A stretch of 64,000 nt of DNA, taken from contig JAIMBT010000007.1 in assembly GCA_023511295.1 (NCBI GenBank), forward strand, positions 62,001 through 126,000. The letters are read 5' to 3'. The notes beneath the pieces were generated by a model. The model had not been told where the DNA came from. It made no database searches and saw only the letters and a program-made list of their open reading frames with translations. Numbering within the stretch: position 1 is the stretch's first letter; each line of letters begins with the position of its first letter. This document shows positions 1 to 19,038 of this stretch, one piece after another. This stretch comes from Alicyclobacillus sp. GTDB lineage: Bacteria; Bacillota; Bacilli; Alicyclobacillales; Alicyclobacillaceae. The position numbers were made by a program, and so were the translations under genes.

Positions 1-252
1 GGCGGCGGCCGCCGCCGTCCCGGTCGCAATCGTCTCCTTGTGCTCGAATCCGGGCTCCCGCAGGTGGACGTGCACGTCGATGAAGCCAGGGAGCAGGACG
101 GCTCCACGCACGTCGTGCTGTTCGTCCGCTTCCGGAAGTTCCCGGCCGATAGCGAGGACCGTCCCAGCGTCCGCGTCGACCAGCACGTCCACCGCTGTCA
201 GGCTGCCGTCCACCAGGTCGAGCAGGCGGCCCCCCACCAGTTTCCGTCTCAT
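1..252 (-). CDS. pyrC: Dihydroorotase, N-terminal part (cut by window start)
   Basis: Dihydroorotase closes N-carbamoyl-aspartate to dihydroorotate in pyrimidine synthesis. Reading the minus strand from ATG at 252 gives a protein starting [16 protein letters not shown]. Around residue 55 it contains [14 protein letters not shown], the metal-binding HxH motif of the amidohydrolase family; the HLREPG form is typical of dihydroorotases. The rest lies outside the window. The start ATG overlaps the pyrB stop (ATGA), so translation is probably coupled. It belongs to the pyrR-pyrB-pyrC operon. Confidence 0.9.
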
Positions 253-1229
253 ACCATCCCGCCTTCCCCAAACGTCTCCGTGAGCATTCGATCCAACACC
301 GCCATGCGCAGGAACAAGCCGTTTTCGACCTGCCGAAAATAGGCAGCTCGAGGGTCCGTGTCAATCGCCGGATCAAGCTCGTCCACACGCGGCAGCGGAT
401 GCAAAATTCGCGCGTGCGCCGGCAACTGTGCCAGCTCCGCCGGGCCAATCCGCACGGGACCTGCGGTCGGGCGCTGGTCCGCGGGCAAGCGTTCCGCCTG
501 CACCCGGGTCTGGTACACGACATCCGCATCCGCCAGCGCCTCGGTGAGCGAATCGGCGGCCCAGAGGGTGATGCCGGCCGCCCGCACCTCCCGAACCAAC
601 GTCTCCGGCAATTCCAGACCCGCGGGCGCCAGCATGCAGACCTCCACACCCCGAAACTTGGTCAGCAGGCGCACCAGGGAGTGAACCGTCCGCCCGTAGC
701 GGAGGTCTCCGAACAGGCTCACCCGCAGTCCATCTACATGCCCGAACTCGCGCTGGAGTGTGTAGACGTCGAGCAGGGCCTGCGTCGGGTGCTCTCCTGA
801 CCCCGTGCCGGCACTGACCACAGGCACGCGGCTGCAGGCAGCCGCCGCTTCAAGGGCGTCGTCTTCGTGGTGCCGGACGACGAGCAGGTCCACGTAGCTG
901 CTCACCACCCGAAGCGTGTCGGACAGGCGCTCGCCCTTTTTTGCAGAGGAGTGCTCGCGTGCGTTCTCCGCTCCGACGACGTGCAGGCCGAGCCGGAGGG
1001 CAGCAGCTTCAAAGGACATCCGCGTCCGCGTGCTCGGCTCGTAGAACAGACTCCCCATCACCGCGCCGCGCCACCGTTGAGCGGTCTCCGCCCGCGGCGC
1101 GTGTCGGAGCGCTTCGGCTTGTTCAAATAAGGTCTCGACGTGCGCGCGCGTCAAGCGGTCGGCGCTCACCAGATGGCGTGGGAACGGAGCCGTCGTGACT
1201 GGCGTGGAAGCGGCCCATTCAGTGGACAA
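249..1229 (-). CDS. pyrB: Aspartate carbamoyltransferase catalytic subunit
   Basis: PyrB makes carbamoyl-aspartate from aspartate and carbamoyl phosphate, the committed pyrimidine step. The carbamoyl-phosphate motif FYEPSTRTR sits near residue 66, [14 protein letters not shown] in the middle, and HPLPRVDEL near the C-terminus. Length (about 326 aa) is normal. The open frame extends upstream, but the homologous part begins with [15 protein letters not shown]. There is no ATG there, so I chose TTG at 1229, which overlaps the end of pyrR and has GGAGAGG about 12 nt upstream. No regulatory pyrI chain is seen. The exact start is the main doubt. Confidence 0.93.
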
Positions 1230-1740
1230 TCCAGACACCGTCCTCTCCGTCCCTTTCCGTGAAATGTACCGAGATTGACTCGTCACGTGCAGTCGGCACG
1301 TTCTTGCCGACGAAATCGGCGCGAATCGGCAGTTCGCGGTGTCCGCGGTCAATCAGCGCCGCCAACTGGACGTTGCGGGCTCTCCCCGTCGAGAGCAGGG
1401 CGTCCAATGCGGCGCGGACGGTACGCCCGGTGTACAGCACGTCGTCGACCAAGACCACGCGCTTGTCGACGATGTCGAGGCCGGGTACCGGGTCCCGCGT
1501 GGGGGTTCCGGCCACATCGTCCCGGTAGGGCCGAGCGTCGAGGTGAAACACGGACACCGCGCCCCCTTCAATCTCTCGCAGCCGTCGTGCAAGGCGGTCT
1601 GCCAGCACAGCGCCCCGCGTCAAGATGCCGACGACGACCACGTCGTCGAGCCCCTTGTTGCGCTCGAGTACCTCGTGGGCCATCCGCGTCACCGACCGGC
1701 GCATGGCTGTGTCGTCCATGATCTGCGTCTTTCGATCCAC
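1219..1740 (-). CDS. pyrR: Bifunctional pyr operon attenuator / uracil phosphoribosyltransferase
   Basis: PyrR binds UMP and the pyr leader RNA and promotes termination; it also has weak UPRTase activity. The 173 aa length fits the family. The PRPP loop VLVDDVLYTGRTVRAAL lies near residues 95-111, and the N-terminal DDxAMRRSVTRMAHEVLERN is typical. Start is GTG at 1740 with AGAGGAAGGG upstream. It is the first gene after the attenuator at 1799-1905, so it probably regulates its own operon. pyrB follows at once with overlapping ends; the uracil permease gene pyrP, often found here, is absent. Confidence 0.95.
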   Translation of the reverse strand: MDRKTQIMDDTAMRRSVTRMAHEVLERNKGLDDVVVVGILTRGAVLADRLARRLREIEGGAVSVFHLDARPYRDDVAGTPTRDPVPGLDIVDKRVVLVDDVLYTGRTVRAALDALLSTGRARNVQLAALIDRGHRELPIRADFVGKNVPTARDESISVHFTERDGEDGVWIVH

Positions 1741-1798
1741 GTTTCCCTTCCTCTCCCGGGTTCATGTGAGTCCCCAAAAGCGGTGTTGGAATCCGCAC

Positions 1799-1905
1799 AA
1801 AAAAGCGCGGCGCCTCCGGGACGGAAGCAGCCGCGCTGCAGGCAGCCCCGCTCCACAGGGCCGCCTGTTTCGTATGCCGACTCCTTACCAATCTCACGGG
1901 ACTGG
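1799..1905 (-). promoter_or_regulatory. PyrR-dependent attenuator in pyr leader
   Basis: In minus-strand sense, positions 1903-1883 read AGTCCCGTGAGATTGGTAAG followed by G. This matches the known PyrR-binding loop consensus AGUCCnGnGAG..U..AAGG. Downstream, at 1837-1804, the complementary arms AGCGCGGC and GCCGCGCT form a hairpin followed by six T (1804-1799), an intrinsic terminator. The arrangement (binding loop, terminator, then pyrR) is the classic UMP-responsive attenuator. Family knowledge gives the function; the sequence shows the motif and hairpin. Confidence 0.88.
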
Positions 1906-1956
1906 TTTAAAGGCAGTGCAAGTTGTTGCGCCCGCAGGCGCCGAACCTTCTCTGCA

Positions 1957-1985
1957 ACACTAACAGGTTTCGGTCAGCCGGTCAA
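1957..1985 (-). promoter_or_regulatory. Likely sigma-A promoter of the pyr operon
   Basis: On the minus strand TTGACC (1985-1980) is followed after 17 bp by TAGTGT (1962-1957), preceded by TGT, giving an extended -10. It lies just after the rluD stop and upstream of the PyrR attenuator, where the pyr promoter should be. The -10 is only a partial match. Confidence 0.5.
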
Positions 1986-2002
1986 GAGTGGGTAGTCCAG
2001 TG

Positions 2003-2965
2003 TCAGCCGGCCCCCCGCCCTTCCGCCGCCTCCGTCAGTTGGTGCAACAGCGCCACCATGTCATCCGGCAGCGGTGCTTCAAACGTCAGCGTCTCCCCGC
2101 TGCGAGGGTGGACGAATCCGAGGGTCGCTGCGTGCAACGCCTGCCCGTCGATGGGGAGCGTGTGCCGCGGGCCGTACACCGGATCTCCAGCCAGAGGGTG
2201 GCCGATGTACGCCATATGCACCCGGATTTGATGCGTCCGGCCGGTTTCCAGCCGCAGCTCCAGGTCGCTGTACGCCGGAAAGCGGTGCAGCACGCGAAAG
2301 TGGGTCACCGCCGGTTTGCCCGAAGGCCGAACCGCCATCCGCTGGCGATGGTTCGGGTCCCGCCCAATCGGTGCGTCGACCGTACCGTGGTCGTGCGCCA
2401 AGGCGCCGTGGACGATGGCGCGATACTGCCGAGTCATCGTGTGCAGCCGCAATTGCTCGGCGAGCTTGTGGTACGCAAGGTCGGTCTTCGCGAACACCAG
2501 GAGCCCCGAGGTATCCTTGTCGATCCGGTGCACGACACCGGGGCGCACGCCACCCCCGAGAGGAGACAGTGGCACACCCCGCCCCAACAGCCCGGCGACG
2601 AGCGTACCGCGATGATGACCCGCCCCCGGATGCACCACGACGCCACGCGCCTTGTTCACCACAATCACGTCCGCGTCCTCGTAAACGATGTCGAGATCCA
2701 TCGATTCCGGCTCCATGACAACCGGTTCCGGTTCTGGCACGCAGACGACGTAGACCTCGCCAGAGACGACCTTGTCGCTCGCCTTCACCGCCAAACGGGG
2801 TCCGCTCACTCGCCCATCGCGAAGCCAAGACTGGACCTGACTCCGCGACACGTCAAACCCCTCATCCTCGAGGGCTTGCGTCAGCCACAGATCCAGCCGC
2901 AGCCCTTCGTCATCCGCACCCGCTTCGACCGTCCACCGCGTTTGCATCTGCTGTGATCTCCCCAT
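2003..2965 (-). CDS. rluD: RluD-type 23S rRNA pseudouridine synthase
   Basis: Converts uridines in 23S rRNA to pseudouridine. The N-terminal S4 RNA-binding domain covers about residues 17-80 (DEGLRLDLWL..SRSQVQSWLRDGRV). The catalytic domain carries HRIDKDTSGLLVFAKT with the catalytic aspartate, and later RLETGRTHQIRVH. Start ATG at 2965 overlaps the lspA stop (TGATG), giving 320 aa; a second ATG at 2947 is possible. Gene order lspA-rluD-pyrR matches lspA-ylyB-pyrR of B. subtilis, so this is the YlyB orthologue; which uridines it modifies is not known from sequence. Confidence 0.94.
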   Translation of the reverse strand: MGRSQQMQTRWTVEAGADDEGLRLDLWLTQALEDEGFDVSRSQVQSWLRDGRVSGPRLAVKASDKVVSGEVYVVCVPEPEPVVMEPESMDLDIVYEDADVIVVNKARGVVVHPGAGHHRGTLVAGLLGRGVPLSPLGGGVRPGVVHRIDKDTSGLLVFAKTDLAYHKLAEQLRLHTMTRQYRAIVHGALAHDHGTVDAPIGRDPNHRQRMAVRPSGKPAVTHFRVLHRFPAYSDLELRLETGRTHQIRVHMAYIGHPLAGDPVYGPRHTLPIDGQALHAATLGFVHPRSGETLTFEAPLPDDMVALLHQLTEAAEGRGAG

Positions 2966-3459
2966 CAGAGATCTTGTCCGTTCCGTTGCTCCACGTCCGC
3001 GCCGCCCTGCTTTCGTCCGGAACCGAACAAATTGCGGACCAGAATCAACAGGACGCCAACCACAATCGCACTGTCCGCCAGGTTGAACACGGGATAGTGA
3101 ATGGCCACCACGTAGACGTAATCGACAACGGTGCCCCAGACCATCCGGTCGGTCAGGTTCCCGAGCGCGCCGCCGAGCAACAGACCGAGCCCCACTTGCG
3201 TCGTCCAGTTCAAACGGTAGCGCGACTTCACGAAGACCACCGCAGCGACCACGACGACGGCAATCAGCACCAGCAACCAGCGAGATCCACCCAGTAGTCC
3301 CCATGCTGCACCGGGATTGCGGATGTAGTTGAGGACCACGACGTGGGGAATGACCGGAATCACCTCCCCCACGTACATGTGTTGCCGGACCACCCATTTG
3401 ATCCATTGATCCAGCGCATAGACGACAACCGCCAATCCGTAGACCAACACGAAGGGCAC
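2965..3459 (-). CDS. lspA: Lipoprotein signal peptidase (signal peptidase II)
   Basis: Aspartic membrane protease that removes signal peptides from diacylglyceryl-modified prolipoproteins. The 164 aa sequence has about four membrane segments. It contains the two conserved aspartate motifs, GNLTDRM near residue 112 and FNLADSAI near residue 135, and the NxGAAW motif NPGAAWGLL. Start is GTG at 3459 with a GGCGGGGG ribosome site. A substrate in this window is the GerC-like lipoprotein. Confidence 0.95.
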   Translation of the reverse strand: MPFVLVYGLAVVVYALDQWIKWVVRQHMYVGEVIPVIPHVVVLNYIRNPGAAWGLLGGSRWLLVLIAVVVVAAVVFVKSRYRLNWTTQVGLGLLLGGALGNLTDRMVWGTVVDYVYVVAIHYPVFNLADSAIVVGVLLILVRNLFGSGRKQGGADVEQRNGQDL

Positions 3460-3535
3460 ACCCCCGCCACGTATTCTGTGTCAGTCTACCACAACCGCGG
3501 GCTGCTTGCCGGCCGACGGCGCGTGACCACCTCCG

Positions 3536-4150
3536 CTACGGACGCTGCGCTCGGTACATCTCATTGGAAATGGAATCGACGGGATCGACAATGCCCTCGT
3601 TGTCGTCCAGATAACTGCGCTCCAGGTGGGGTTCCACGTCCTGGTCGTAACCTGGGCGCTGGTTGAAGCGGGCAACGGCTTGCCACGCGTCCTCGCCGTC
3701 AAAGCCCGTCTGGTCTTGGCCGTCGAGGTCCGTCCGACCGAATCCTGGCCAGAGCACGTGCTCTTCAATCGGACGCTGGAGGTCCGTCCAGCGGGCCTCC
3801 TGCCGTCGCCGACAGTCGATACACAGGCGCGCCAGAGGGTTCGCTTCCAGGCGCTCCTCCGGAATCGTCTGCCCGCATTCGACGCATCGGCCGTAGGTGC
3901 CGTCCGCCAACGCCTGAAGGGCGAGGTTGACCTCGTTCAAGCGCACGTGGTCCAAATGGCGCAAGCCGAAGTCCTTCTCTCGCTCAAACAGTTCCGAAGC
4001 CACGTCGGCTGGGTGGTTGTCGGCGAGTGACAGCTCACTGGTCTGGTCCCGCATGGCATCGTTCAATCCGTACGAATCCGTATCTTCGAGTCGGTGCTCC
4101 AAGTCGCGCTTGATGCGCATCAATTCCGCTCTGACCGCCTCGCTATCCAT
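3536..4150 (-). CDS. TraR/DksA-type C4 zinc-finger protein (YlyA/YteA family)
   Basis: Members of this family resemble DksA and are thought to bind RNA polymerase. The N-terminal part is helical (MDSEAVRAELMRIKRDLEHRL). The zinc finger is CVECGQTIPEERLEANPLARLCIDC (two CxxC pairs), near residues 88-112. An acidic C-terminal tail includes a YDQDVEPHLERSYLDDNEG stretch. I chose ATG at 4150 (204 aa), preceded by AGAGGAGA; the open frame runs 11 codons further. Position next to lspA matches ylyA of B. subtilis. Confidence 0.85.
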   Translation of the reverse strand: MDSEAVRAELMRIKRDLEHRLEDTDSYGLNDAMRDQTSELSLADNHPADVASELFEREKDFGLRHLDHVRLNEVNLALQALADGTYGRCVECGQTIPEERLEANPLARLCIDCRRRQEARWTDLQRPIEEHVLWPGFGRTDLDGQDQTGFDGEDAWQAVARFNQRPGYDQDVEPHLERSYLDDNEGIVDPVDSISNEMYRAQRP

Positions 4151-4347
4151 CTCTGCATCCCATCTCCTCTGCATCGCGTGCATCGCTCATCGTTGGCCTC
4201 GGCGCGCCGACGGCGGATATGGTTAGACTCCACCCAGGTCGCGACCGGCATACACCACTCGGTGTGGCAATAGAGGCCAGCCAAGAACCAACTTTTCAAA
4301 GGTCTGTCACGCCTTTCCCTCGCGGGAACCGGTATGATAGAGGAGGA

Positions 4348-4377
4348 GTCGCCGGGCGGCAGACGCCGCCCGGCGAC
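4348..4377. repeat. Perfect 13-bp inverted repeat upstream of a small membrane ORF
   Basis: GTCGCCGGGCGGC (4348-4360) and GCCGCCCGGCGAC (4365-4377) are exact complements around a 4-nt AGAC loop. No T-run follows on either strand, so it is not a typical terminator. It sits between a TATGAT -10-like box (4333-4338) and the small plus-strand ORF at 4404, so it would lie in that gene's 5' UTR or act as an operator. Confidence 0.6.
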
Positions 4378-4403
4378 AGACTGCGAGAACGGGGCGAACC
4401 AGG

Positions 4404-4580
4404 TTGAAGCGGTATCACGTGCAGGCGCTGTCGCTGGTGCTGATGTGGATTGGTGGGTTAGAGGTCATTTCCAGCTTCCTGGTGCACAACTGGTTTCAGT
4501 TCAACATCCCGTACACCCCTGTATTTTTCCTATCGCTCCTCGTCGGACTCGGGTTATACCTCGTGACGCGGGTCTTTTAG
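4404..4580 (+). CDS. Small two-helix membrane protein, unknown function
   Basis: A 58-codon ORF starting TTG at 4404 (alternative GTG at 4419) encodes a very hydrophobic protein. It starts with KRYHVQALSLVLMWIGGLEV, then continues through a short polar turn with VHNWFQFNIPY into a second hydrophobic helix ending LYLVTRVF. It would be a hairpin with two membrane helices. It is transcribed against its neighbours and occupies the place where B. subtilis has ileS. A weak GGGG site precedes the start, and a strong inverted repeat follows at 4597-4644. I do not recognise the family. The clean alternation of hydrophobic helices supports coding. Confidence 0.6.
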   Translation: MKRYHVQALSLVLMWIGGLEVISSFLVHNWFQFNIPYTPVFFLSLLVGLGLYLVTRVF

Positions 4581-4596
4581 AATCCCTGCCAGATAG

Positions 4597-4644
4597 ACGC
4601 CAAGCGGTGCCCCGTCCGAACCCGGCCGGGACACCGCTTGGCGT
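4597..4644. terminator. Bidirectional terminator-like hairpin
   Basis: ACGCCAAGCGGTG (4597-4609) pairs exactly with CACCGCTTGGCGT (4632-4644). It lies between the plus-strand small ORF and the end of minus-strand divIVA, a convergent junction. The T-runs are weak (TTCCTT on the plus side). Confidence 0.65.
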
Positions 4645-4693
4645 TCCTTGCATCTTCACGTGCGCGCTGAACCCCCGTCTCGAACGGTCCCGC

Positions 4694-5218
4694 TCAGCCC
4701 TCCTGGGAAGCGTACTCGCGACCGAAACCCGTTTCAGTTCGCGACACGGGTGAGAGGTCGCGGTCAAACTTCTCCCATTCGCCCGATTCCAGCATTTCCA
4801 GCTGCGCTTGAATCAGCGAGCGGAAGCGGGCGCGGAAAATCGCTGCGTGCTTCTGAACCTCTTCCACCTCGAGTGCAATCTTGCGCGACTTGTTCAGCGC
4901 TTCCGAGACGATGCGGTCCGCGTTCTTCTCCGCTTCCTTGATGATGAGCTGGGCCTCTTTACGCGCGTTGTTCTTCACTTCTTCCGCCGTCTCCTGTGCC
5001 ACGATGATGGACTTGCTGAGGCTCTCCTCGATATTGCTGAAGTGCCGGAGCTTCTCCGTCAGCTCTTCAATGCGCTCCTCGAGCTCCTTGTTTTGACGAA
5101 TCAATCCCTCGTAGTCTTGGATGACCCGTTCCAGAAAATCGTCCACCTCATCTTCGTCGTACCCGCGAAACGAGCGGCTGAACTCCTTGTTATGAATATC
5201 CAATGGGGATAATGGCAT
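4694..5218 (-). CDS. divIVA: Cell-division initiation/polarity protein DivIVA
   Basis: DivIVA binds negatively curved membrane at septa and poles and recruits partners in division and sporulation. The N-terminal membrane-binding part MPLSPLDIHNKEFSRSFRGY followed by DEDEVDDFLE is typical. A long coiled coil runs from about residue 40 to 135. Start ATG at 5218 has AGGAGG at the right distance (174 aa); an upstream in-frame ATG at 5251 is unlikely. It lies after ylmH, as in B. subtilis, but ileS does not follow it. Confidence 0.95.
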   Translation of the reverse strand: MPLSPLDIHNKEFSRSFRGYDEDEVDDFLERVIQDYEGLIRQNKELEERIEELTEKLRHFSNIEESLSKSIIVAQETAEEVKNNARKEAQLIIKEAEKNADRIVSEALNKSRKIALEVEEVQKHAAIFRARFRSLIQAQLEMLESGEWEKFDRDLSPVSRTETGFGREYASQEG

Positions 5219-5350
5219 GAACTTCGCCTCCTCTCGCACTGCGAAACGCAACGGACATCTGGCTCATCTCGCACAAAACCCGATCCGTCGACAAAATCCG
5301 CTGTACCCATTCGACGCGGGCGCGGCGAATCCTGCAAACGCAGCCGTGAT

Positions 5351-6121
5351 TTACCGGTTGGATTTGAGAACCCCGACGTGCAACCGCAACCGCCCCTTGC
5401 GCGAGATACCGTCCTCCGCGGCAATCCGCAGGCGGCCAAACCGCCGGACGGAGATCACGTCACCGACGGCGACCTCGGCATCTGGATGCGTCTCTTCGGC
5501 GTGATTGAGCATCACCCTGCCGGTCTCCACCGCGGCCTTCGCCTCGGCGCGCGACAGATGGCAACACGCGGCGAGCACCGCGTCCAAGCGCAGCGATGCA
5601 ACCTGGACATCGGCCCACTGGTAGGTGGGGCCGTGAAAGGCCGCGCGCTCCACGACCTGAAGGGACACCGGATACCTTCCCACGTGGGTCCAGTGACCCT
5701 GGAGGAACGGGAGGATGTCTTGGCACACCGCAATCGTGACACTGGATCTGCCCACCTCAATGTCCCCGATTTTCCGCCGCGCGATTCCCGTGCCGAGCAA
5801 GGACCCGAGCACCGCGCCGTGTGCCGGCAATTCACCAGCGACCTCCGCCAGGAGCACCCGAACTTCAAAATCAGCTGGCTCTGGCTGCCAGTCGTCCGGC
5901 ATGACCAAGGCTCGCATCCGCTCTGCACCTGAACCTCCGCCGTCGAAGGCCACCACGCACGCCCCCTCGCGCGCGACCGAAGTCAGCAACAGCTGCTCCC
6001 GAGGTCCGAGAAAGTCAGTTCTCCGCCACGTCCCGCCGCGGATAACGGATTCCACCCAATCCCGCGCCTGACGGACAAACGCCTGCTCCGAAGGGCGAAC
6101 CCAGGACGCATCGCCGCTCAT
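5351..6121 (-). CDS. ylmH: YlmH-type RNA-binding protein with S4 domain
   Basis: YlmH/RqcP-like proteins carry a C-terminal S4 domain and are linked to ribosome quality control and septum genes. The 256 aa sequence has the S4 segment near residues 178-245 (LRLDAVLAACCHLSRAEAKAAVETGRVMLN, then GDVISVRRFGRLRI). The N-terminal half contains GSLLGTGIARRKIGDIEV, a YlmH signature. Start ATG overlaps the ylmG stop (ATGA), which suggests coupling. Confidence 0.9.
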   Translation of the reverse strand: MSGDASWVRPSEQAFVRQARDWVESVIRGGTWRRTDFLGPREQLLLTSVAREGACVVAFDGGGSGAERMRALVMPDDWQPEPADFEVRVLLAEVAGELPAHGAVLGSLLGTGIARRKIGDIEVGRSSVTIAVCQDILPFLQGHWTHVGRYPVSLQVVERAAFHGPTYQWADVQVASLRLDAVLAACCHLSRAEAKAAVETGRVMLNHAEETHPDAEVAVGDVISVRRFGRLRIAAEDGISRKGRLRLHVGVLKSNR

Positions 6122-6417
6122 GCCGACAACCGCCCCAACACGGCGAAGAGGACCGACAACACACCTTCGCGCAGGAAAAAGTAGACGACCACAGCGACGA
6201 TGAACGACACGTCGAGCAGCAGACCGCCGAGGTGCAGCGGCGGAATGAAGCGCCGAAAGAGCCGCAGGTACGGGTCCGTGATGCTGTCGAGGATGCGGCC
6301 CAGTTGAGAGTTCGCAAGGTCCGGCACCCAGGACAGGATGGCCGTCGCAATCAAGATGTACCCGTACACTGCGAGCAGTGCGTCAATGAGGTTGTATAAG
6401 GTGATATAAAAAGCCAT
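6118..6417 (-). CDS. ylmG: YggT/YlmG family membrane protein
   Basis: This 99 aa protein has two membrane helices separated by the family motif DPYLRLFRRFIPPLHLGGLLLDVSF. YggT proteins sit in division gene clusters across bacteria and plastids; their exact role is unsettled. The start ATG at 6417 is preceded by GGGGCGGACGG. Only 48 bp separate it from ylmE, so sepF, which sits here in B. subtilis, is missing. Confidence 0.9.
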   Translation of the reverse strand: MAFYITLYNLIDALLAVYGYILIATAILSWVPDLANSQLGRILDSITDPYLRLFRRFIPPLHLGGLLLDVSFIVAVVVYFFLREGVLSVLFAVLGRLSA

Positions 6418-6465
6418 CCGTCCGCCCCGTTTCTCCGTATCCGTCCGTTCAACCGAGCGACACCT

Positions 6466-7149
6466 TCAGCCCACCAAGCGGCGGCCGATGCGCACCATGG
6501 TCGCGCCTTCCTCCACCGCGATGGGGAAGTCGTCCGACATGCCCATCGACAACTCGCGAAAGTCTTCGATGCCGAGCGTATCGCGAACCTCGTCCCGCAA
6601 CACGCGCAACCCGCCAAAGACTGCACGCAGCGTGGCTTCATCGGCACCGGCGGGCGCCATCGTCATCAGTCCGCACAGGTGCAGGTGGGGACACGATTGT
6701 AACCGTCGGCAGACCTCGAGCACGTCATCCGGCCGAATCCCGCCCTTGCTGACCTCGCCGGAGACGTTGACCTGCAACAGTGCCCGCGGGCGAACGCCCG
6801 TCCGAGCGGCCACCTCATCCACCAGCAAGCCCAGGTTCACCGAGTCGATGGAGTGAATATAGGAAAACCGCGGCACGACATAGCGCACTTTGTTCGACTG
6901 CAGGCGGCCGATGAAATGCCATACGGCGCCCCCCGCTGCCGGCGAGGCCAGCATCTCGCGCGCGTGTTGCCACCGGTTTTCGCCGAGATCTGTCAACCCC
7001 GCCTTCAGGATGGCCGGGATTTCCTCCGGACCGACCGTCTTTGTCACTGCAACCACGCGGACGGCCCGCTCCGTATCGCCCGCAGCCGCCAGCGCTCGAC
7101 CGATTTCCTGCTGCACCTGCTGCCGCGAAACCGCGTAATCCGCCGTCAT
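6466..7149 (-). CDS. ylmE: YggS-type pyridoxal phosphate homeostasis protein
   Basis: PLP-binding protein that keeps vitamin B6 pools in balance, with an alanine racemase N-terminal (type III) fold. Visible motifs include VAVTKTVGPEEI with the PLP lysine (near residue 36), GENRWQ, HFIGRLQSNKVR, and GMSDDFPIAVEEGATMVRIGRRLVG at the C-terminus, which carries the phosphate-binding loop. Length 227 aa is normal. Start ATG at 7149 follows GGGAAGGGAG. Confidence 0.93.
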   Translation of the reverse strand: MTADYAVSRQQVQQEIGRALAAAGDTERAVRVVAVTKTVGPEEIPAILKAGLTDLGENRWQHAREMLASPAAGGAVWHFIGRLQSNKVRYVVPRFSYIHSIDSVNLGLLVDEVAARTGVRPRALLQVNVSGEVSKGGIRPDDVLEVCRRLQSCPHLHLCGLMTMAPAGADEATLRAVFGGLRVLRDEVRDTLGIEDFRELSMGMSDDFPIAVEEGATMVRIGRRLVG

Positions 7150-7177
7150 CCCTACTCACACTCCCTTCCCGCCGTCG

Positions 7178-8005
7178 TCAGGGCGGAGACAGCACAATCG
7201 CGCCGCACTGACGGCCGGTCTTCCCTGCCTCAGCGCGGTGGGAGAATAGATGCTCCCTGTGACACGCCGTGCACACGCCCACGTCGTCGATGTGCGCGTC
7301 CAAGACGCTTGCGTTGAGCAGGTCCATCCGGATGCACGCCTGCAGACTGAGCCAGTACCGCTCCTCTGACCCGTGCCGCGCAACCAACGGTTTTTCCCCA
7401 AAGGCCGCGCGGACCGGCCCAGCGACGGCCTCGTCGACCTCATAGCAACAACGTCGAATGGAAGGGCCGAGCGCAACCCGAAGGTCTTCCGGCCGGCTGC
7501 CGAATTCGGCGGACATCCGCTCGACGACCTTTACGGCGATGTGCGACACGGTCCCCCGCCAACCGGAATGCGCAGCAGCGACCACGCGCCGGACGGGGTC
7601 ATGGAAGAGTATCGGAACGCAATCTGCGGTGAGTACGACCAATGTCAGCCCTGGCTCGTTCGTGACCAACGCGTCGCACCCCGCGATGGGCGCATGATCC
7701 GTTGTGGATCCCGCCCCGCGGTGACGCCTGTCGACCACGGCCACCTGGTTCCCATGTACCTGTTCCCCGACCACCCAGTCGGCGAGATCGCCAAAGCCGC
7801 GTTCGCTCCAACGCCGGCGATTCTCTTCTACGCGCGCTGGGTCGTCGCCCACGTGGTACCCGAGGTTCAGGCTCTGCCATGGGGCTTTGCTTACACCGCC
7901 CGTACGAAAGGAGAACGACGCCCGAACCCCGGCCTTGGACCACGCGGCCGCAACCTCCATGATGCCCGCAGGCGAACGCTGAGACCAGCGATGCAGCACA
8001 AACAT
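7178..8005 (-). CDS. ylmD: YlmD/YfiH-type polyphenol oxidase family protein (PgeF)
   Basis: Former DUF152 (laccase-domain) family; the E. coli homologue PgeF corrects wrong peptides in peptidoglycan precursors. The 275 aa sequence shows the metal-site motifs VVGEQVHGN, LTADCVPIL, AAAHSGWRGT and GPSIRRCCYEV. Start ATG at 8005 has AAGGGGGC upstream. It opens the ylmD-ylmE-ylmG-ylmH-divIVA row. Substrate here is not known from sequence. Confidence 0.9.
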   Translation of the reverse strand: MFVLHRWSQRSPAGIMEVAAAWSKAGVRASFSFRTGGVSKAPWQSLNLGYHVGDDPARVEENRRRWSERGFGDLADWVVGEQVHGNQVAVVDRRHRGAGSTTDHAPIAGCDALVTNEPGLTLVVLTADCVPILFHDPVRRVVAAAHSGWRGTVSHIAVKVVERMSAEFGSRPEDLRVALGPSIRRCCYEVDEAVAGPVRAAFGEKPLVARHGSEERYWLSLQACIRMDLLNASVLDAHIDDVGVCTACHREHLFSHRAEAGKTGRQCGAIVLSPP

Positions 8006-8086
8006 GCCCCCTTCGAGCCGCTTGCTTACAAGCTTACGACACGAGGGGGCACGCTGACAATGCGCCGTCTCTGCGCACCGGCGCTT

Positions 8087-8389
8087 CTAATACCCGCCGG
8101 TTCCCTGCTTTCCAGACTTTCCGGATTGGGGTGGGATGTAGTAGCCGCTCTCGCGGAGGGGCCGTAGATCCACCAAGATGACGTCCGACCCAATTTTAAC
8201 AATCTGGTTCCACGGGACCACGTAATCCTGCCCGCCACCGACCAGTCCGAACAGCCGTGTTTGCCCGGGAATCACCAGTGCGTGAATCAGGCCGCTGTCC
8301 GGATCAATCTCGAGGTCGCCGATGGTGCCGAGGCGCTTGCCGTCACCGACGCTGACAACGTCCTTGGCTTGGAGATCTGAGATACGCAT
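8087..8389 (-). CDS. ylmC: YlmC/YmxH family sporulation protein (PRC-barrel)
   Basis: A 100 aa PRC-barrel protein starting MRISDLQAKDVVSVGDGKRLG. It contains GDLEIDPDSGLIHALVIPG and the WNQIVKIGSDVILVD strand, as in B. subtilis YlmC and YmxH. Its neighbour is sigG. I took ATG at 8389 (GGGGCGACCTCG before it) rather than an ATG 24 bp upstream. Function is unknown, although the family is associated with sporulation. Confidence 0.88.
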   Translation of the reverse strand: MRISDLQAKDVVSVGDGKRLGTIGDLEIDPDSGLIHALVIPGQTRLFGLVGGGQDYVVPWNQIVKIGSDVILVDLRPLRESGYYIPPQSGKSGKQGTGGY

Positions 8390-8479
8390 CGAGGTCGCCC
8401 CCCGTCGTGCCATCCTCCCACAATGTATATGTGAGCCGGGCGGGCAACTTGCCCCAAAATCGCGGGCTGGCGCGTCGCG

Positions 8480-9265
8480 TCAGATGTCCGCCTGGACGTG
8501 CTTTTGCATCCTGCCGATTGCCGCTTTCTCCAGGCGGGACACCTGTGCCTGCGAGATGCCGATCTCTTCAGCCACTTCCATCTGCGTCTTCCCCTCAAAG
8601 AAGCGCATCGATAAAATCTTCTTCTCGCGGTCGTTGAGTCTGCGCATCGCCTCTCGGATGGCAATCTCTTCGACCCACGTCTTGTCCAAGTTTTTGTCGT
8701 CGTGAATCTGGTCCATCACGTAGATGGGGTCGCCACCGTCATGGTAAATCGGTTCGAACAAGGAGACTGGATCTTGAATGGCGTCGAGCGCGAACACCAC
8801 GTCCTCCTTGGGGAGGTTTAGCTCGGCCGAGATCTCCTGAATCGTCGGCTCGCGGAGGTTTTGGTTCGTCAGCTGGTCGCGAACCTGCAGGGCCTTGTAC
8901 GCGATGTCGCGCAGCGACCGACTGACGCGAATGGGATTGTTGTCGCGAAGGTAACGGCGGATTTCGCCGATGATCATCGGCACCGCGTAGGTGGAGAAGC
9001 GTACGTTCTGTGCGAGATCAAAATTGTCGATAGCCTTCATCAAGCCGATGCAGCCGACTTGAAACAGGTCGTCCACGTACTCGCCGCGGTTGTTAAAGCG
9101 TTGTATGACGGAAAGCACGAGGCGCAGGTTTCCGTTGACCAGTTTCTCGCGGGCTTCCCGATCTCCGGTCTGCAGCGCCGCAAACAGTTCTCGCATCTCC
9201 GCATTCGTGAGCACCGGGAGTTGAGACGTGTTGACGCCACAAATCTCGACCTTCGTACGCTTCAC
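8480..9265 (-). CDS. sigG: RNA polymerase sporulation sigma factor SigG
   Basis: Late forespore sigma factor. The 261 aa sequence begins KRTKVEICGVNTSQLPVL, the SigG N-terminal signature. Region 2 follows (ARGKL-like LVNGNLRLVLSVIQRFNNRG, DDLFQVGCIGLMKAIDNFDL), and then region 4 (LNDREKKILSMRFFEGKTQMEVAEEIGISQAQVSRLEKAA). Start is GTG at 9265 with GGGGGGAAC before it. A SigF/SigG-like promoter lies 64 bp upstream. sigE precedes it, as in B. subtilis. Confidence 0.97.
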   Translation of the reverse strand: MKRTKVEICGVNTSQLPVLTNAEMRELFAALQTGDREAREKLVNGNLRLVLSVIQRFNNRGEYVDDLFQVGCIGLMKAIDNFDLAQNVRFSTYAVPMIIGEIRRYLRDNNPIRVSRSLRDIAYKALQVRDQLTNQNLREPTIQEISAELNLPKEDVVFALDAIQDPVSLFEPIYHDGGDPIYVMDQIHDDKNLDKTWVEEIAIREAMRRLNDREKKILSMRFFEGKTQMEVAEEIGISQAQVSRLEKAAIGRMQKHVQADI

Positions 9266-9328
9266 TGTGAGTTCCCCCCATGCTGACTGACAAGTGGCGG
9301 CGGTACGGTCGCGGCGAATGTCGTCAAC

Positions 9329-9356
9329 AGTATGTCCGAGGGGGGGATTCTTATGC
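9329..9356 (-). promoter_or_regulatory. SigF/SigG-type promoter of sigG
   Basis: On the minus strand GCATA (9356-9352) and CATACT (9334-9329) are 17 bp apart, with GG just before the CATACT box. This resembles the -35 GYATA and -10 GG..ATA.T forms used by forespore sigma factors, and the known spoIIIG promoter has the same layout. Placement between sigE and sigG supports it. Confidence 0.6.
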
Positions 9357-9366
9357 AGTGCTGGAA

Positions 9367-9405
9367 GGCCCGCGAAACGCCGGCAGCGGTCGGGCGCCGC
9401 GGGCC
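9367..9405 (-). terminator. Hairpin after sigE
   Basis: GGCCCGCG (9367-9374) pairs with CGCGGGCC (9398-9405), and an internal GC-rich part may extend the stem. It follows the sigE stop by a few bases and precedes the sigG promoter. No T-run is present, so it may reduce rather than end read-through. Confidence 0.45.
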
Positions 9406-9413
9406 TGGCCAGG

Positions 9414-10163
9414 TCACATCATGCGGTTGAACTCGCGGCGCAGGCGCTTGATGATCCGCTTCTCCAGCCGGGAGATGTAGGACTGCGAGATGCCGAGCAG
9501 GTCGGCAACGTCTTTCTGGGTCATCTCCCCGGTCCCGCCGAGGCCAAAACGCAGTTCCATAATGGTCCGCTCGCGCTCTGTGAGTTTATCGAGCGCGTCG
9601 TAAAGAAGCGACTTGTCAACCTCCTCTTCCAGGTTGCGGTAGATGGTATCGGCCTCCGTCCCAAGGACATCCGACAGCAGCAGTTCATTTCCGTCCCAAT
9701 CGACGTTCAGGGGTTCGTCGAACGAGACCTCCGATTTCAACTTGTTGTTGCGGCGCAGGAACATCAAAATTTCATTCTCGATACAGCGGGACGCGTACGT
9801 CGCCAGCTTGATCTTCTTTGCGGGGTCAAACGTGTTGACGGCCTTGATTAAACCGATGGTGCCGATGGAGACGAGGTCCTCGATGTGCAAGCCCGTATTC
9901 TCGAATTTCCGGGCAATATACACGACCAGCCGCAGGTTTCGTTCAATCAACATACTGCGGACCGCGGCGTCTCCATCCGGCAGCTTGCTGAGCAGGTACG
10001 CCTCTTCGTCTCGCGTCAACGGCGGCGGCAGCGCTTCACTGCCGCCGACGTAGTAGACCTCTTCAGCGCCCCCCTGGAGCCGAAGTCGAATGCGAATCCA
10101 CAGAAGTTGCAGCCGAATCCGGAGTGCGAGACTGCGGCGGCTGGTACGTGATGGGTTCTTCAT
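9414..10163 (-). CDS. sigE: RNA polymerase sporulation sigma factor SigE (pro-form)
   Basis: Mother-cell sigma factor made as an inactive precursor. An N-terminal pro-sequence ([20 protein letters not shown] and beyond) leads to [16 protein letters not shown], the conserved junction cut by SpoIIGA. Region 2 ([34 protein letters not shown]) and region 4 ([23 protein letters not shown]) are complete. I chose ATG at 10163 (249 aa); an ATG three codons upstream is also possible. The start lies inside the 3' end of spoIIGA, a long overlap. Confidence 0.96.
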
Positions 10164-11094
10164 ATCGCTCATCCCCCGCCATCAAATCTGTATGCAGCAC
10201 CGCTTGAAAGCGGCCGTCCACGGCCAGCGGCGCCGCGTGAAGTGCAAGCAGACAAGGGCCGACCGAGCGCTCCCGTCCATCGGACAGTTGCAGCGTCAGC
10301 GCATCGGGCCGGACCGCGACGGTGACCTTCTGGACCCCGCCCGCGCCCCGAAACGGCACCAGGGACAATCTCGGCACAGATTCGGATGCGACCTGTTGCA
10401 ACTGCGCCAGCATGTCGTCTTCCGGAACGTCCGCCAAAGCCCCGAGTGGGCCGGGAACCAACTGGCGCCAGACAGCCGCATCGACGAGGCAGACCGGGGT
10501 GTGGGACAGCGGATCGCGCAACTGATTGCCGGTGTCCAGGAGGCCGGTGAATCCGACCGTCCGGTCGCCCAACACGGCCGTGACGGAGCACAGAGCCGCC
10601 TGTGCACGAACCACCGTGCGGATGCGCCCGATGGCGACGTGAAGTAACCAAAGCCCAATGGGGATGGCCAGAACAACGGCGAAACCGCCGATGGAGGTGG
10701 CAAAGGCGAGCCGTCCGCCGTGCACGACGGTTCCTTGCATCAGGGTCATCGCAGGTACGGCGAAGTGCATGGCCAGTGCAGCGCCGGCGACCAGAAACGT
10801 AACGCAGTAGAACACGGCGACGTTTCGGGCGAGATCGAGCCAGTTCCGAAAGGGAATCGCCACCACAACCATCGCGAGGGACGACAGAGCCTTTCCGAAC
10901 CACGTGGTGAACAGTGCAGCGTGGGGAACGAACATCGCCAGGCCGTAGACGGCTCCGAACAGCGACCCGCAAAGCAGCCGCCACGGGCGAATGCGGCGGC
11001 GCACCGTCCAGCAGGTCGCAGCTAAAATCACGCCATCCATCGCGAGGTTGACGACAAATACGATGTCCACGTAGATGACTGGCACCAGGCCCAC
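10063..11094 (-). CDS. spoIIGA: Sporulation sigma-E processing peptidase SpoIIGA
   Basis: Septal aspartic protease that activates pro-SigE. The N-terminal half has about five membrane segments, starting [20 protein letters not shown]. The C-terminal half carries [13 protein letters not shown] near residue 185, the retroviral-protease-like active-site DTGN. At 343 aa it is longer than B. subtilis SpoIIGA (about 309 aa). The extra C-terminal part is encoded in DNA shared with the first 101 bp of sigE. The tail ([20 protein letters not shown]) has low complexity. Confidence 0.92.
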
Positions 11095-11117
11095 CTCGTT
11101 GCTGGCGGATGGGCACA

Positions 11118-11182
11118 GTATAGTACATCTCTATTTCAAACCCTGTCGGAACTTGACTGCGAAATCGTAGACATTTTGTCGC
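11118..11182 (-). promoter_or_regulatory. Possible Spo0A-controlled promoter of spoIIGA-sigE
   Basis: The plus strand shows TTTTGTCGC (11174-11182) and TGTCGGA (11144-11150), each one mismatch from the Spo0A box TTTTGTCGA / TGTCGAA. On the minus strand TATACT (11123-11118) is a good -10, and no normal -35 lies 17 bp upstream. This resembles the B. subtilis spoIIG promoter, where Spo0A boxes overlap the -35 zone. Function is inferred. Confidence 0.42.
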
Positions 11183-11256
11183 ACAAAAACGGCAGAGGGG
11201 AAGGAGTGCCCGGGGAAGCCAGGGCGACGGGGGTCATCTCGCCGTTCGGATGCACG

Positions 11257-11285
11257 AAAAAAGCCCCGGGGACACTGCCCGAGGC
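11257..11285 (-). terminator. Intrinsic terminator of the dcw operon after ftsZ
   Basis: In minus-strand sense GCCTCGGG and CCCGGGGC form an 8-bp stem (one G-T pair) with a 6-8 nt loop, followed by TTTTTT. It lies 86-114 bp after the ftsZ stop and before the spoIIGA promoter region. Confidence 0.85.
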
Positions 11286-11370
11286 CCTGTCGGTAAAGTT
11301 CAGGCTTCCGCGACCATTGGGAGGATGCGGCCGCATCTATCCGGTGGTGGTGCCGCGCCACCTTCGGCGC

Positions 11371-12501
11371 TTACCGATCTCGCGATAGTCGGCCGTCCCG
11401 CCGCCGCATGAACGCCGGAATGTCCCACGCGTTGCCTGTGTTCGGCACGTTTGGGTAATCTTCCGCGATGGGTCCCGTCGTGCGCGGCTTGGTCGCCGCC
11501 ACCTGAGCCGCCGCGGAGCTCGCCACAGGAGCCGAGTGGGGCTTGGCTGTATTCTCGAACCCCGTTGCAATCACCGTGACGACAATCTCCTCGCCGAGCT
11601 CCGGGTCGATATGCGCCCCGAAAATCATGTTGACCTCAGGGTCCGCTGCGGTCGAGACGATATCCGCTGCTTCGTTGACTTCCCACAAACTCAGGTCGGA
11701 CCCTCCTGCGATGTGCATCAGTACGCCCATCGCGCCGTCGATGGAGGTCTCGAGCAGCGGGCTGCTGATGGCGTTTTTCGCCGCTTCCGTGGCGCGGTTC
11801 TCGCCGCGGGCCACGCCGATTCCCATCAGGGCAGACCCGCGTTCCGCCATAATCGCCTTCACGTCGGCGAAATCTACGTTGATAAGCCCAGGAACGGCAA
11901 TCAAATCCGAGATACCCGATACACCTTGGCGCAACACGTTATCCGCCTCGCGAAACGCCTCCAGCATCGGCGTGTTGCGGTCCACAATCTCCAGCAGTCG
12001 GTCGTTCGGGATGACAATCAGGGTATCGACCTTCTCCTTGAGATTGGTCACCCCGGTCTCGGCTTGGGCCATACGGCGCTTTTGTTCAAAGCGGAACGGC
12101 TTCGTGACGACGCCGACAGTCAGAGCCCCCAGTTCCTTCGCAATCTCCGCAATCACCGGTGCAGCCCCGGTGCCCGTTCCGCCACCCATGCCCGCCGTGA
12201 CGAACACCAAGTCCGCACCCTGTAGTGCGTTGACGAGGATTTCGCGACTTTCCTCGGCCGCCTTCTTGCCGATTTCCGGATTCGCACCGGCACCGAGGCC
12301 GCGCGTCAGTTTCTCGCCAATCTGCAGTTTCACAGACGCCTTCGACAACTGCAGCGCCTGCGCATCCGTGTTGACGACGATGAACTCAACGCCGGCGATG
12401 CCGGATTCAATCATCCGGTTGACGGCGTTGCAGCCGCCGCCCCCGACGCCAATCACCTTGATTTTCGCAAGCGGCTCATAATCTACGTCGAACTCAAGCA
12501 T
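11371..12501 (-). CDS. ftsZ: Cell division protein FtsZ
   Basis: Tubulin-like GTPase that forms the Z ring. Visible are the N-terminal [17 protein letters not shown], the GTP-binding [18 protein letters not shown] (near residue 104), and the T7 loop [10 protein letters not shown]. After a short variable linker comes the C-terminal peptide [10 protein letters not shown], which binds FtsA, SepF and other partners. Length 376 aa is normal. ATG at 12501 has GGAGGAG upstream. Last gene of the dcw operon. Confidence 0.98.
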
Positions 12502-12564
12502 TGCTGCTCCTCCTTGGAAGTGGATACGCGGGCCGACCGCGGTTGGTCGCGGGCGTTGCAGGCG

Positions 12565-13794
12565 TTAGATGAAGTCTCTCAGCCAGTCCTTGAAACGGGC
12601 GAACACGCCGCCTCCAGTTTTGACGGGTCTGGATGTAGTCACGGTCTCCAGTTGCGTGATGCGCACCTGGGAGCGAAGCGCATGGCTGATGATGCCAACC
12701 CCGTTCACGAACGAGGGGTCGCGGACGCCCAAGAACTCGGGAACGGCGACGCGAACCGGCGCCTGCAGCTCCGCTGCAGCGAGTTCTCCCGCAGCTTGCA
12801 TGGACATCACGCCGCCGTGCAACACATAGCCGCTCGGCAGGTCGTGCAGGTAACCCATCTTTTCAATCTCTTTCCGTACCAAGGAGAAGATCTCCTGCAT
12901 GCGCGGTTCAATGATGGTTGCGAGGTCGTACTGCGTGTACTCCACTTCCTGATGGCTTCCAATTCGGGGAATCTGGAAGCGTTCCGCGTCCGACGCTGCA
13001 TCTACGGATGCGCACCCGTGTCGAATTTTCACCTGTTCCGCCGTCGCGGTCTGCGTGCGCAACCCGATGGCGATATCGTGGGTCACGTAGTCGCCACCCA
13101 TCGGAATGATGCTGGTTCCGACCATGACGCCGTGCTCGAATACGGTGACCGACGTCGCGCCGGCGCCGACGTCCACCAAGGCGACGCCAAGTTTTCGCTC
13201 GTCGGCAGACAGCGCCACGGTGCTGGCCGCCATCGGCAGAAGCACCAGGTTCGCTACTTCGATACCCGCTCGTTCGACGCAGCGAACCACATTGTGAATC
13301 GCGGTTCGGCTCCCGGTGATGAGGTAGGCGTCCACTTCCAGGCGAACGCCGAGCATCCCGCGCGGGTCCATGATACCCCGCAATCCGTCGACGATGTATT
13401 CCTTCGCAACGACGTCGATGATCTCGCGCTCCGGCTTCAACGCGACCACGCGGGCCTGCTGCAGGACTCGGTCGATATCTTCTTCACCAATCTCACGGTC
13501 TTGGGAGGAAACCGCGACGACTCCGTGGCTGCTCTGAAGTTCAATGTGGTTGCCGGAGATGCCCACGTAGGCGGAAGCGATGTGAATGCCAACCATGCGC
13601 TCCGCATGGTCGACAGCCTCGCGGATGGACTGAACCGTTTGATCTATATCTACGATGGCGCCGTGACGAATCCCTTCACCCTCGGCCGAACCGACACCAA
13701 TCACGTTGATGGAATTCCCATTGAGTTCACCGATAATCGCGCGAACTTTAGAAGTGCCGATGTCGAGACTGACGATGTACTCTCCTTTGGCCAA
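12565..13794 (-). CDS. ftsA: Cell division protein FtsA
   Basis: Actin-like protein tethering FtsZ to the membrane. The nucleotide-binding motifs are YIVSLDIGTSKVRAIIGE at the N-terminus, VALVDVGAGATSVTVFEHG in the middle and YVLHGGVM later. The C-terminal FARFKDWLRDFI is the amphipathic membrane helix. I chose TTG at 13794 (409 aa) because GGGAGGTG lies about 10 nt upstream, and the homologous region begins AKGEYIVSLD. With no sepF in its usual place, FtsA may be the main anchor. Confidence 0.96.
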   Translation of the reverse strand: MAKGEYIVSLDIGTSKVRAIIGELNGNSINVIGVGSAEGEGIRHGAIVDIDQTVQSIREAVDHAERMVGIHIASAYVGISGNHIELQSSHGVVAVSSQDREIGEEDIDRVLQQARVVALKPEREIIDVVAKEYIVDGLRGIMDPRGMLGVRLEVDAYLITGSRTAIHNVVRCVERAGIEVANLVLLPMAASTVALSADERKLGVALVDVGAGATSVTVFEHGVMVGTSIIPMGGDYVTHDIAIGLRTQTATAEQVKIRHGCASVDAASDAERFQIPRIGSHQEVEYTQYDLATIIEPRMQEIFSLVRKEIEKMGYLHDLPSGYVLHGGVMSMQAAGELAAAELQAPVRVAVPEFLGVRDPSFVNGVGIISHALRSQVRITQLETVTTSRPVKTGGGVFARFKDWLRDFI

Positions 13795-13890
13795 ACGCGT
13801 GGCACCTCCCTTACCGCGACAAGAACGCAAATTGACACATTGCTAATTCTGCAAGGCTGTCGACATTCCTCTTTTTCTGTAAAACTTTTT

Positions 13891-14259
13891 TCACGCCACA
13901 GGAGGTGCCGGACGCTTGCGCCGGCTCGATTTGGCGAAGACATGTCGGCGGATGACGGCGATGTTTTGGAACAGCCGGACGCCGAACGCAACCACGGCCG
14001 CCAGGTACAGGTCCACGCCGAGTTGGTTACCGATGTAGGCCAGCAGCGCCGCGACCAGTGTGTTGAAGAAGAATCCGGAGAGAAAGACGGTACTGTCGAA
14101 GGACCGCTCCAAACTCGCCCGAACACCGCCCATCACCGTGTCGATGGCAGCCAGGATGGCAATCGACAGATAGCTGGAGTACATCACCGGAATGTGGACG
14201 TTGGCCACGTATCCGACGGCGACACCGACCAGGAGACCGAGCACCGGTAACCAGATCAT
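13891..14259 (-). CDS. sbp: Small basic protein Sbp (DUF1290)
   Basis: A 122 aa protein with about three membrane helices. It starts MIWLPVLGLLVGVAVGYV and contains YSSYLSIAILAAIDTVMGGVR, the DUF1290 core. The C-terminal tail is basic (RRHVFAKSSRRKR). It is encoded between the DUF881 gene and ftsA, as in many Bacillota. Its start overlaps the previous stop (ATGA). The role is unknown. Confidence 0.9.
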   Translation of the reverse strand: MIWLPVLGLLVGVAVGYVANVHIPVMYSSYLSIAILAAIDTVMGGVRASLERSFDSTVFLSGFFFNTLVAALLAYIGNQLGVDLYLAAVVAFGVRLFQNIAVIRRHVFAKSSRRKRPAPPVA

Positions 14260-14999
14260 CCGTTGTGCACCTCTTTCGCGAAATTGCCAGGGAGCGGACC
14301 CTGGTATCCGGCTACCGTAACGCCCTCCGCCCCCGTGTGCGGGGTAATGGTGCAGCGCTCCTGCATCAGCGCCAGCTCCGTCACCACGTCATTCAGCGTG
14401 AGAATCGCCTGCATGCGCTGGATATCCCCCACAGCCGTGATGACATAGGGCGACTCGATGGGCACGGTGTTCACCTGCAGATCGCTCGTTCCGCCGAGAC
14501 CGGCGACCAGGCGGATGGACGACGTCGTGACCAGGCGCTGGCCGTTGATGCTGATGGCCTGCGCGCCGTTCGCAAACAGGTCGTTGACAATCAGCCCGAG
14601 CTCTTGATCTGCATCTTGGTCGAACAGCCCGGCGGTACTCGCGTTGTAGGGAAGGCTCGGGTCAAAAGAGATGGCGATGGTGATGCCTGGTCCTGTGACA
14701 CTCGTCAGTCCCGCCTCCTTCGCCACCGTGGCGGCATCCTGCTGCAGGGCCTCCATCATCGCAGCCTGGTGGCCCTTGGCGTTCTTGTACGCCTGCACCT
14801 GCGACTCGGCCTTGGCAATCTGCTGCAACAGTTGCACGTGTTCCTGGGCCTGCTCCTCCACCTCTGTCTTCAGGTCGATGTAGCTGGAGAGGCTGCCCGA
14901 ATCCGGCGCCGGGGCCGCTGACGTCAACTGAACCGTCAGGAGAAAACCGAGCACTGCGGCGACCCCTGTCAAGGACCAGATGAGTCGATTGCGCTTCAT
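14256..14999 (-). CDS. DUF881 family membrane-anchored protein (YlxX-like)
   Basis: One N-terminal membrane anchor (residues about 6-28), a coiled coil (ELKTEVEEQ-like, residues 40-85), then the DUF881 domain with LIVNDLFANGAQAISINGQRLV. It is the second of two tandem paralogues between divIB and sbp, matching ylxW-ylxX of B. subtilis. ATG at 14999 follows GGGAGGGGGG. The job is unknown, probably a cell-envelope or division accessory. Confidence 0.88.
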   Translation of the reverse strand: MKRNRLIWSLTGVAAVLGFLLTVQLTSAAPAPDSGSLSSYIDLKTEVEEQAQEHVQLLQQIAKAESQVQAYKNAKGHQAAMMEALQQDAATVAKEAGLTSVTGPGITIAISFDPSLPYNASTAGLFDQDADQELGLIVNDLFANGAQAISINGQRLVTTSSIRLVAGLGGTSDLQVNTVPIESPYVITAVGDIQRMQAILTLNDVVTELALMQERCTITPHTGAEGVTVAGYQGPLPGNFAKEVHNG

Positions 15000-15063
15000 A
15001 CCATCCCCCCTCCCGTCCATTCGCGTCCGGCGGTGCGCCGCAACCACCAGACGAGCAAACGAC

Positions 15064-16562: not shown

Positions 16563-16689
16563 CGGAACTGTCCCTCCATCGAAACCCATGTGCCGGATGG
16601 CTCTACCGCCGCGTTCACCATATCCCGACTGCCGGACCACTACCGCAGCCATACCAGCGTTCTCCGGAATCACCATTGTATCGGTATAC

Positions 16690-16725
16690 GTCATTCGGAC
16701 GGACGACCACGTCCGTCCGAATGAC
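16690..16725. repeat. Perfect 15-bp inverted repeat between murA and divIB
   Basis: GTCATTCGGACGGAC (16690-16704) and GTCCGTCCGAATGAC (16711-16725) are exact complements around GACCAC. It starts 7 bp after the murA stop and lies about 130 bp before the divIB start. No T-run follows. It could fold in the operon mRNA (partial attenuation or RNA processing) or be an operator for a dimeric regulator. Confidence 0.7.
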
Positions 16726-16731
16726 GTCCGC

Positions 16732-17985: not shown

Positions 17986-17989
17986 ACCG

Positions 17990-18910: not shown

Positions 18911-19038
18911 CTTCTTCCCTCCGCGGCTCCTCGTTCTGCGGGCTTATGCGCTCGCCCAGGTCCGTATGGCATTGTATGGGGCGGGTGCGAGATCGGTGCA
19001 GCGCCACATCGGGCAGCGCATGGCGAGCCGCGGGCTCA

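Follow-up and report, generated by a model that had tools for sequence, protein, structure and literature searches.

A predicted small membrane-protein gene in the divIVA–lspA region of Alicyclobacillus and the probable loss of type-1 ileS beside it

Three minus-strand genes frame the locus studied here, which lies in the window, that is, the whole 64,000-nucleotide stretch of Alicyclobacillus sp. DNA that was analysed: divIVA (4694–5251; PF05103, 170.7 bits; probable ATG start at 5218), a yteA-family gene for a DksA/TraR zinc-finger protein (3536–4183; TIGR02890, 176.7 bits, above the cut-off of 134.4) and lspA, encoding signal peptidase II (2965–3459; TIGR00077, above its cut-off). We take the B. 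subtilis order to be divIVA-ileS-ylyA-lspA and the yteA-family gene to occupy the position of ylyA. The divIVA–yteA interval in the window measures 510 bp and lacks ileS, an essential gene for tRNA charging. A sequence-only reading of the locus had reported this absence, and it holds with PF05103 and TIGR02890 identifying the flanks. The same reading placed in the gap a 58-codon plus-strand ORF with two predicted membrane helices, and we could confirm this: the ORF (4404–4580) starts with TTG, stops with TAG and encodes a product with two hydropathy maxima. The inverted repeats described around it are both present. The first, in the leader of the small gene, is perfect (4348–4360/4365–4377; 13-bp arms, 4-nt loop, 100% complementary, −33.4 kcal/mol); the second (4597–4618/4623–4644), a hairpin where the small gene and divIVA converge, is longer than had been described, with 22-nt arms that are 91% complementary and perfect in their outer 13 bp.

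Homologous ORFs, one line of evidence by which the sequence-only reading proposed to judge the small gene, proved to be widespread. A search with the single sequence (E≤0.1) found homologues in 48 of 60 relatives, the weakest rows probably being chance matches, and a 42-row profile matched 51 of the 59 genomes of the order, its own included, at E≤0.01, with no internal stop in any matched stretch listed. All but one of 43 homologues are 58–64 codons long, the remaining one being a 190-codon frame. Their starts align and are mostly TTG (ACG at the aligned position in one), often preceded by a GGAG-type Shine–Dalgarno sequence; that of the window, GGGGCGAA, is weaker than those of its relatives, such as GGGGAGAG. 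Among 31 ungapped sequences pN was smaller than pS in all 465 pairs, substitutions thus being biased to synonymous sites. Judged by these comparisons, the small ORF is a genuine gene under protein-level selection. It occurs once per genome in the order, with a weak partial second match in one genome only (G025). In a class-wide sample the profile matched 52 of 398 genomes (E≤1e-4); 17 of the 52 belong to six families beyond the order. The hosts found all belong to the Bacilli, and a phylum-wide sample of 299 gave a single match, the window's own genome. Both figures come from scoring part of the first-look candidates in many genomes (16 in the class-wide search, 21 in the phylum-wide one), and absences in them are not proof. 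The profile had no match in five genomes of the window's family (G005, G010, G011, G015 and G020) and three of the sister family (G037, G049 and G053, the last 65% complete), and on this distribution the gene is dispensable over evolution.

Upstream of the ORF, on the plus strand, lies a −10-like element, TATGAT (4333–4338), 71 nt before the start codon. It is accompanied by a conserved upstream promoter element (4293–4309, plus strand; GTTCAAAAGAnTGTCA in many relatives), whose TGTCA (4305–4309) stands exactly 23 nt before the −10, a spacing that is fixed in relatives. The layout TGTCA-N23-TATSAT/TAAGAT, with a −10 of TATGAT, TATCAT or TAAGAT, was found in 25 of the 29 upstream regions from the window's family and in none of 200 mononucleotide shuffles; the regions without the full layout are L014, L024 (TTTCA instead), L027 and L035. 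Another family, f37, has TTGAGR-N17/18-TATSAT in all six of its loci. A sigma-70 consensus scan of 4100–4760 reported no promoter, since no −35 hexamer is present there. Together these features suggest that the small gene probably has its own sigma-A-like promoter, one that is probably activator-assisted; expression in growing cells is predicted. The upstream element may be a response-regulator box or a Spo0A box. A pattern made from this element gave nine exact matches across 37 genomes, all nine at the small gene; it gave 12 matches with one mismatch, all elsewhere, against six for a reversed-pattern control, which is not clearly above control, and we therefore claim no regulon. The window's own copy carries too many mismatches to be caught by this pattern. 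In many sister-family loci the element reads CTGTCAAAGGATGTTCA, by eye the same two half-boxes in the other order. In genome G020 (locus L237), where the small gene is gone, TGTATGATGG is still readable, as is a decayed upstream element that lacks TGTCA.

The leader of the window's gene is longer than those of its family relatives. The 71 nt between −10 and start codon compare with 36–61 nt in 27 of 28 family relatives and 32 nt in the other (L036). Because the 30 bp of the upstream repeat account for this difference and occur once in the genome, even with up to three mismatches allowed, the repeat is probably an insertion, specific to this lineage, in the stretch from promoter to start codon; leaders in f37 range from 36 to 79 nt, so leader length alone is not proof of one. 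At the other end of the gene, the downstream hairpin has a folding energy of −40.9 kcal/mol for the plus strand and −46.2 for the minus strand, and just a weak T-run follows it. A terminator consensus scan did not report it, its sole terminator-like site being at 4560–4572. When small gene–divIVA junctions were scanned for hairpins, 10 of 28 sequences exceeded all 20 of their shuffles; the window is among the 28 and not among the 10, the mismatch limit of the scan missing its hairpin. A junction hairpin thus appears, by this count, to be common, not general. Lying between convergent genes, the window's copy fits a terminator, and it is probably a bidirectional one shared by the small gene and divIVA.

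An alternative to a gene of growing cells is one that serves sporulation, with a promoter active in the forespore or mother cell and a link to its ylyA-type neighbour. The neighbour is indeed a yteA-family gene, the hosts found are all Bacilli, and PMC6568419 describes B. subtilis YlyA as a transcription factor of gerA, a germination operon. The promoter itself argues otherwise, its −10 (TATGAT/TATCAT) being sigma-A-like and the f37 loci uniformly carrying the TTGAGR −35. A sigma-G-like motif was found on the yteA side in 4 of 44 regions, against a mean of 0.47 and a maximum of 2 in shuffled sequence; it concerns yteA and not the small gene. On balance we consider a sporulation gene unlikely.

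Hydropathy of the 58-aa product, averaged over 17 residues, peaks at residues 11–27 and 38–55 (2.04 and 2.11), and an AF2 model, of low confidence (pLDDT 69.5, pTM 0.38), has helices at 3–34 and 38–57. Besides the start, W15 and G48 are invariant. The window's protein matched no Pfam or NCBIfam family at E≤10. The 42 members together gave only scattered matches to these two collections (best E 0.013 and 0.0075; no more than 4 and 3 members per family, respectively), and there were no profile matches among PDB sequences at E≤10. We infer that the protein is a two-helix membrane hairpin, most likely one that modulates a larger membrane protein or serves it as a small auxiliary subunit. Its gene is short, hydrophobic in product and monocistronic, with hairpins nearby, as would also befit the hydrophobic toxin in a toxin–antitoxin pair of type I or similar kind. 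Such a toxin is very improbable: there is one match per genome (the partial second in G025 apart), synteny is fixed across families, the promoter is conserved, window positions 1–20000 gave no Rfam match, and the protein matches neither Pfam nor NCBIfam.

The gap without ileS recurs in the family. In 22 loci of the window's family with matches to both genes, divIVA and yteA are 416–1218 bp apart, too short for a 2.8-kb ileS. Named loci were collected with DivIVA as anchor, so that loci without the small gene are included; among the best 80 of 554 confirmed stretches, all 11 loci of the window's family (10 Alicyclobacillus and one Bacillota MAG) lack ileS at the site, and nine of them have the small gene. 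Genome G010 (L236:1241–4226) has some 3 kb of other sequence between divIVA and DUF5665/yteA, with neither the small gene nor ileS at the divIVA site.

In the sister family, type-1 ileS (ileS1) stands between divIVA and yteA/lspA in all 14 loci that span the site, and in 12 of these the small gene, on the opposite strand, lies between ileS1 and yteA, or lspA where yteA gave no match. One further ileS1 locus, L042, ends before divIVA and is otherwise of the same order. The ileS1 frames (13 loci) encode 917–971 aa with HLGH or HIGH and KMSKS motifs. In three further families, f14, f36 and f44, all six loci show this order, with ileS1 and the small gene together. In other loci yteA is no more than about 1 kb from the small gene and the sequence fetched contains no ileS (six loci of f37, one of f29), or the small gene and yteA are about 2.3–4.5 kb apart (four loci of f22).

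The steadiest neighbour of the small gene is a gene for a DUF5665 protein (PF18910). A scan of 71 sequences located it among or next to these genes in 45 (E≤1e-3, counting the locus that supplied the query), including all 17 loci outside the order; three of the 45 loci (L236, L241 and L242) lack the small gene. We read the two genes as adjacent and divergent wherever both occur: in each of the 27 genomes of the order that have both, the matches are 218–338 bp apart, and in f22 DUF5665 still adjoins the small gene though yteA has moved. We had at first favoured yteA as the fixed partner, and the neighbour scan put DUF5665 in its place. The window's whole genome has no DUF5665 match, hence none at 4184–4403, so the small gene persists without it. 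DUF5665 proteins resemble the small protein in being short and hydrophobic and in coming from the same ileS–yteA interval, but the small protein has no Pfam match and is encoded on the opposite strand; PF18910 was absent among the 24 Pfam families listed for the 42 members. A literature search found no paper mentioning DUF5665.

Since ileS1 and the small gene are neighbours in the sister family and in three others (f14, f36 and f44), the small gene is older than the gap and not a replacement of ileS. The sequence-only reading had proposed just such a replacement, and a local rearrangement. Spelled out, the small ORF would have arrived in a recombinational or mobile-element event, bracketed by the inverted repeats, with ileS removed in the process. 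The opposite strand and the flanking repeats invite that idea. The coexistence of the two genes in other families contradicts it, the two repeats are dissimilar, the upstream one is single-copy in the genome and no such repeat was seen in the leaders of the listed relatives, and one repeat fits a terminator between convergent genes while the other sits in a leader. An origin of this kind is barely credible. The sequence-only reading was right that the local order differs from the inferred ancestral one; the rearrangement would, however, consist of losses, of ileS1 and DUF5665, and not of an inserted gene. By its synteny the gap itself reflects the loss of ileS1 only, and the small gene is an old conserved neighbour. 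Least plausible of all is a spurious ORF, with the conserved element serving only as regulatory DNA or RNA of the divergent yteA/DUF5665 genes, for strong intergenic conservation and the window's weak Shine–Dalgarno sequence are outweighed by protein-level selection in 465 of 465 pairs, a length of 58–64 codons in 42 of 43 homologues and a conserved start position.

The sequence-only reading had also called for a search of the whole genome for ileS. One full gene was found, elsewhere (G000:C42:763–3897, minus strand; 1045 aa). Residues 10–1023 of its product align to PDB chain 8c8u (1032 aa) at 1127 bits, the best match, against 362 bits for 8c9e and 369 bits for 1ffy, whose IleRS type we assume, and the translation carries HPGH and KMSKS signature motifs. 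PMC10485003 reports structures of P. megaterium IleRS1 and IleRS2, and from this and from chain length 8c8u would be IleRS2 and 8c9e IleRS1. By full-length similarity, which is greater to IleRS2 than to IleRS1, and by its place in the type-2 clade, the enzyme of the window's genome is of type 2, the eukaryote-like kind.

The two families separate by ileS type. With the type-2 query (E≤1e-60), the window's family gave matches in 36 of its 37 genomes, at 1378–2482 bits, the one without a match being 72% complete, and all 18 sister-family genomes matched at 359–415 bits, which we read as type 1 only. No type-1-level second match was seen in the 37 genomes, second matches staying at or below 242 bits save for pieces of split genes (G005, G012 and G020), and none of the 37 was seen to carry both types. 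In a tree of 92 IleRS sequences, all 60 of type 2 form one clade, and the 27 from the window's family form one clade (support 0.996). The 92 come from 114 loci, the others having been dropped by a length and motif filter that biases the following motif census: the x of HxGH is P in 24 and S in 3 of the 27 family sequences (L001:760–3897, L060–L088) and I in all 33 other type-2 sequences. PMC10485003 describes this position as hydrophobic; in the family it is P or S. IleRS2 as sole IleRS is already known from the same source, and the window's genome resembles those cases in that type 2 is its one full IleRS. Type-2 IleRS among Gram-positives has been placed predominantly in firmicutes and actinobacteria (PMC4861432); a literature search found no paper linking IleRS2 with Alicyclobacillus.

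Of the best 80 of the 554 DivIVA-anchored loci (L104, L105 and L126 among them), 35 have an ileS closer to type 2 at the divIVA site, 30 have one closer to type 1 and 15 have neither. Within this set, type-2 ileS at the divIVA site belongs mostly to Paenibacillus and Cohnella. Their swap resembles that of the window's family in that type 2 has displaced type 1; the difference is that their type-2 gene usually stands at the divIVA site, whereas the window's family has an empty site and carries the type-2 gene elsewhere. No T-box was found in window positions 1–20000. This is weak evidence, because only four of nine loci that have ileS at the divIVA site showed one at the gathering threshold (L043, L099, L126 and L184, as against L040, L045, L046, L049 and L181); none of three family type-2 loci did (L059, L063 and L080). 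In L126 the T-box precedes a type-2 ileS.

These comparisons point to the following history. The ancestral order would have been divIVA - ileS1 - [small gene, opposite strand] - DUF5665 - yteA - lspA. The charging of Ile-tRNA would have passed, in the ancestor of the Alicyclobacillaceae, to a type-2 ileS at another locus, and in that same ancestor ileS1 would have been deleted from the divIVA site; in the lineage of the window the DUF5665 gene would have been lost as well. The small gene would have stayed because it was a separate unit, with its own promoter, its own product and a hairpin terminator shared with divIVA. We hold this history, from displacement by type 2 through the loss of ileS1 and DUF5665 to retention of the small gene as its own unit, to be highly probable.

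The small-protein family appears to be unnamed, the literature having been searched by general words only. Rather more tentatively, we suggest that it may be an undescribed single-copy family of 58–64-aa two-helix proteins, present in eight sampled families of Bacilli, with an activator-like element at a fixed 23 nt in the window's family, whose members could be small partners of a cell-envelope complex in growing cells and, in the window's lineage, have outlived both ileS1 and DUF5665; as a whole this proposal falls somewhat short of even chances. The analysis adds a well-supported small-protein family to the divIVA–lspA region, a region studied for division and sporulation, with a promoter clear enough for testing. 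It also provides a clean, family-wide case of one type of aminoacyl-tRNA synthetase displacing another, in which the former ileS1 position is visible in both states, occupied and vacant. Finally, it corrects a tempting idea, in that an opposite-strand gene found in a synteny gap need not have caused the gap.
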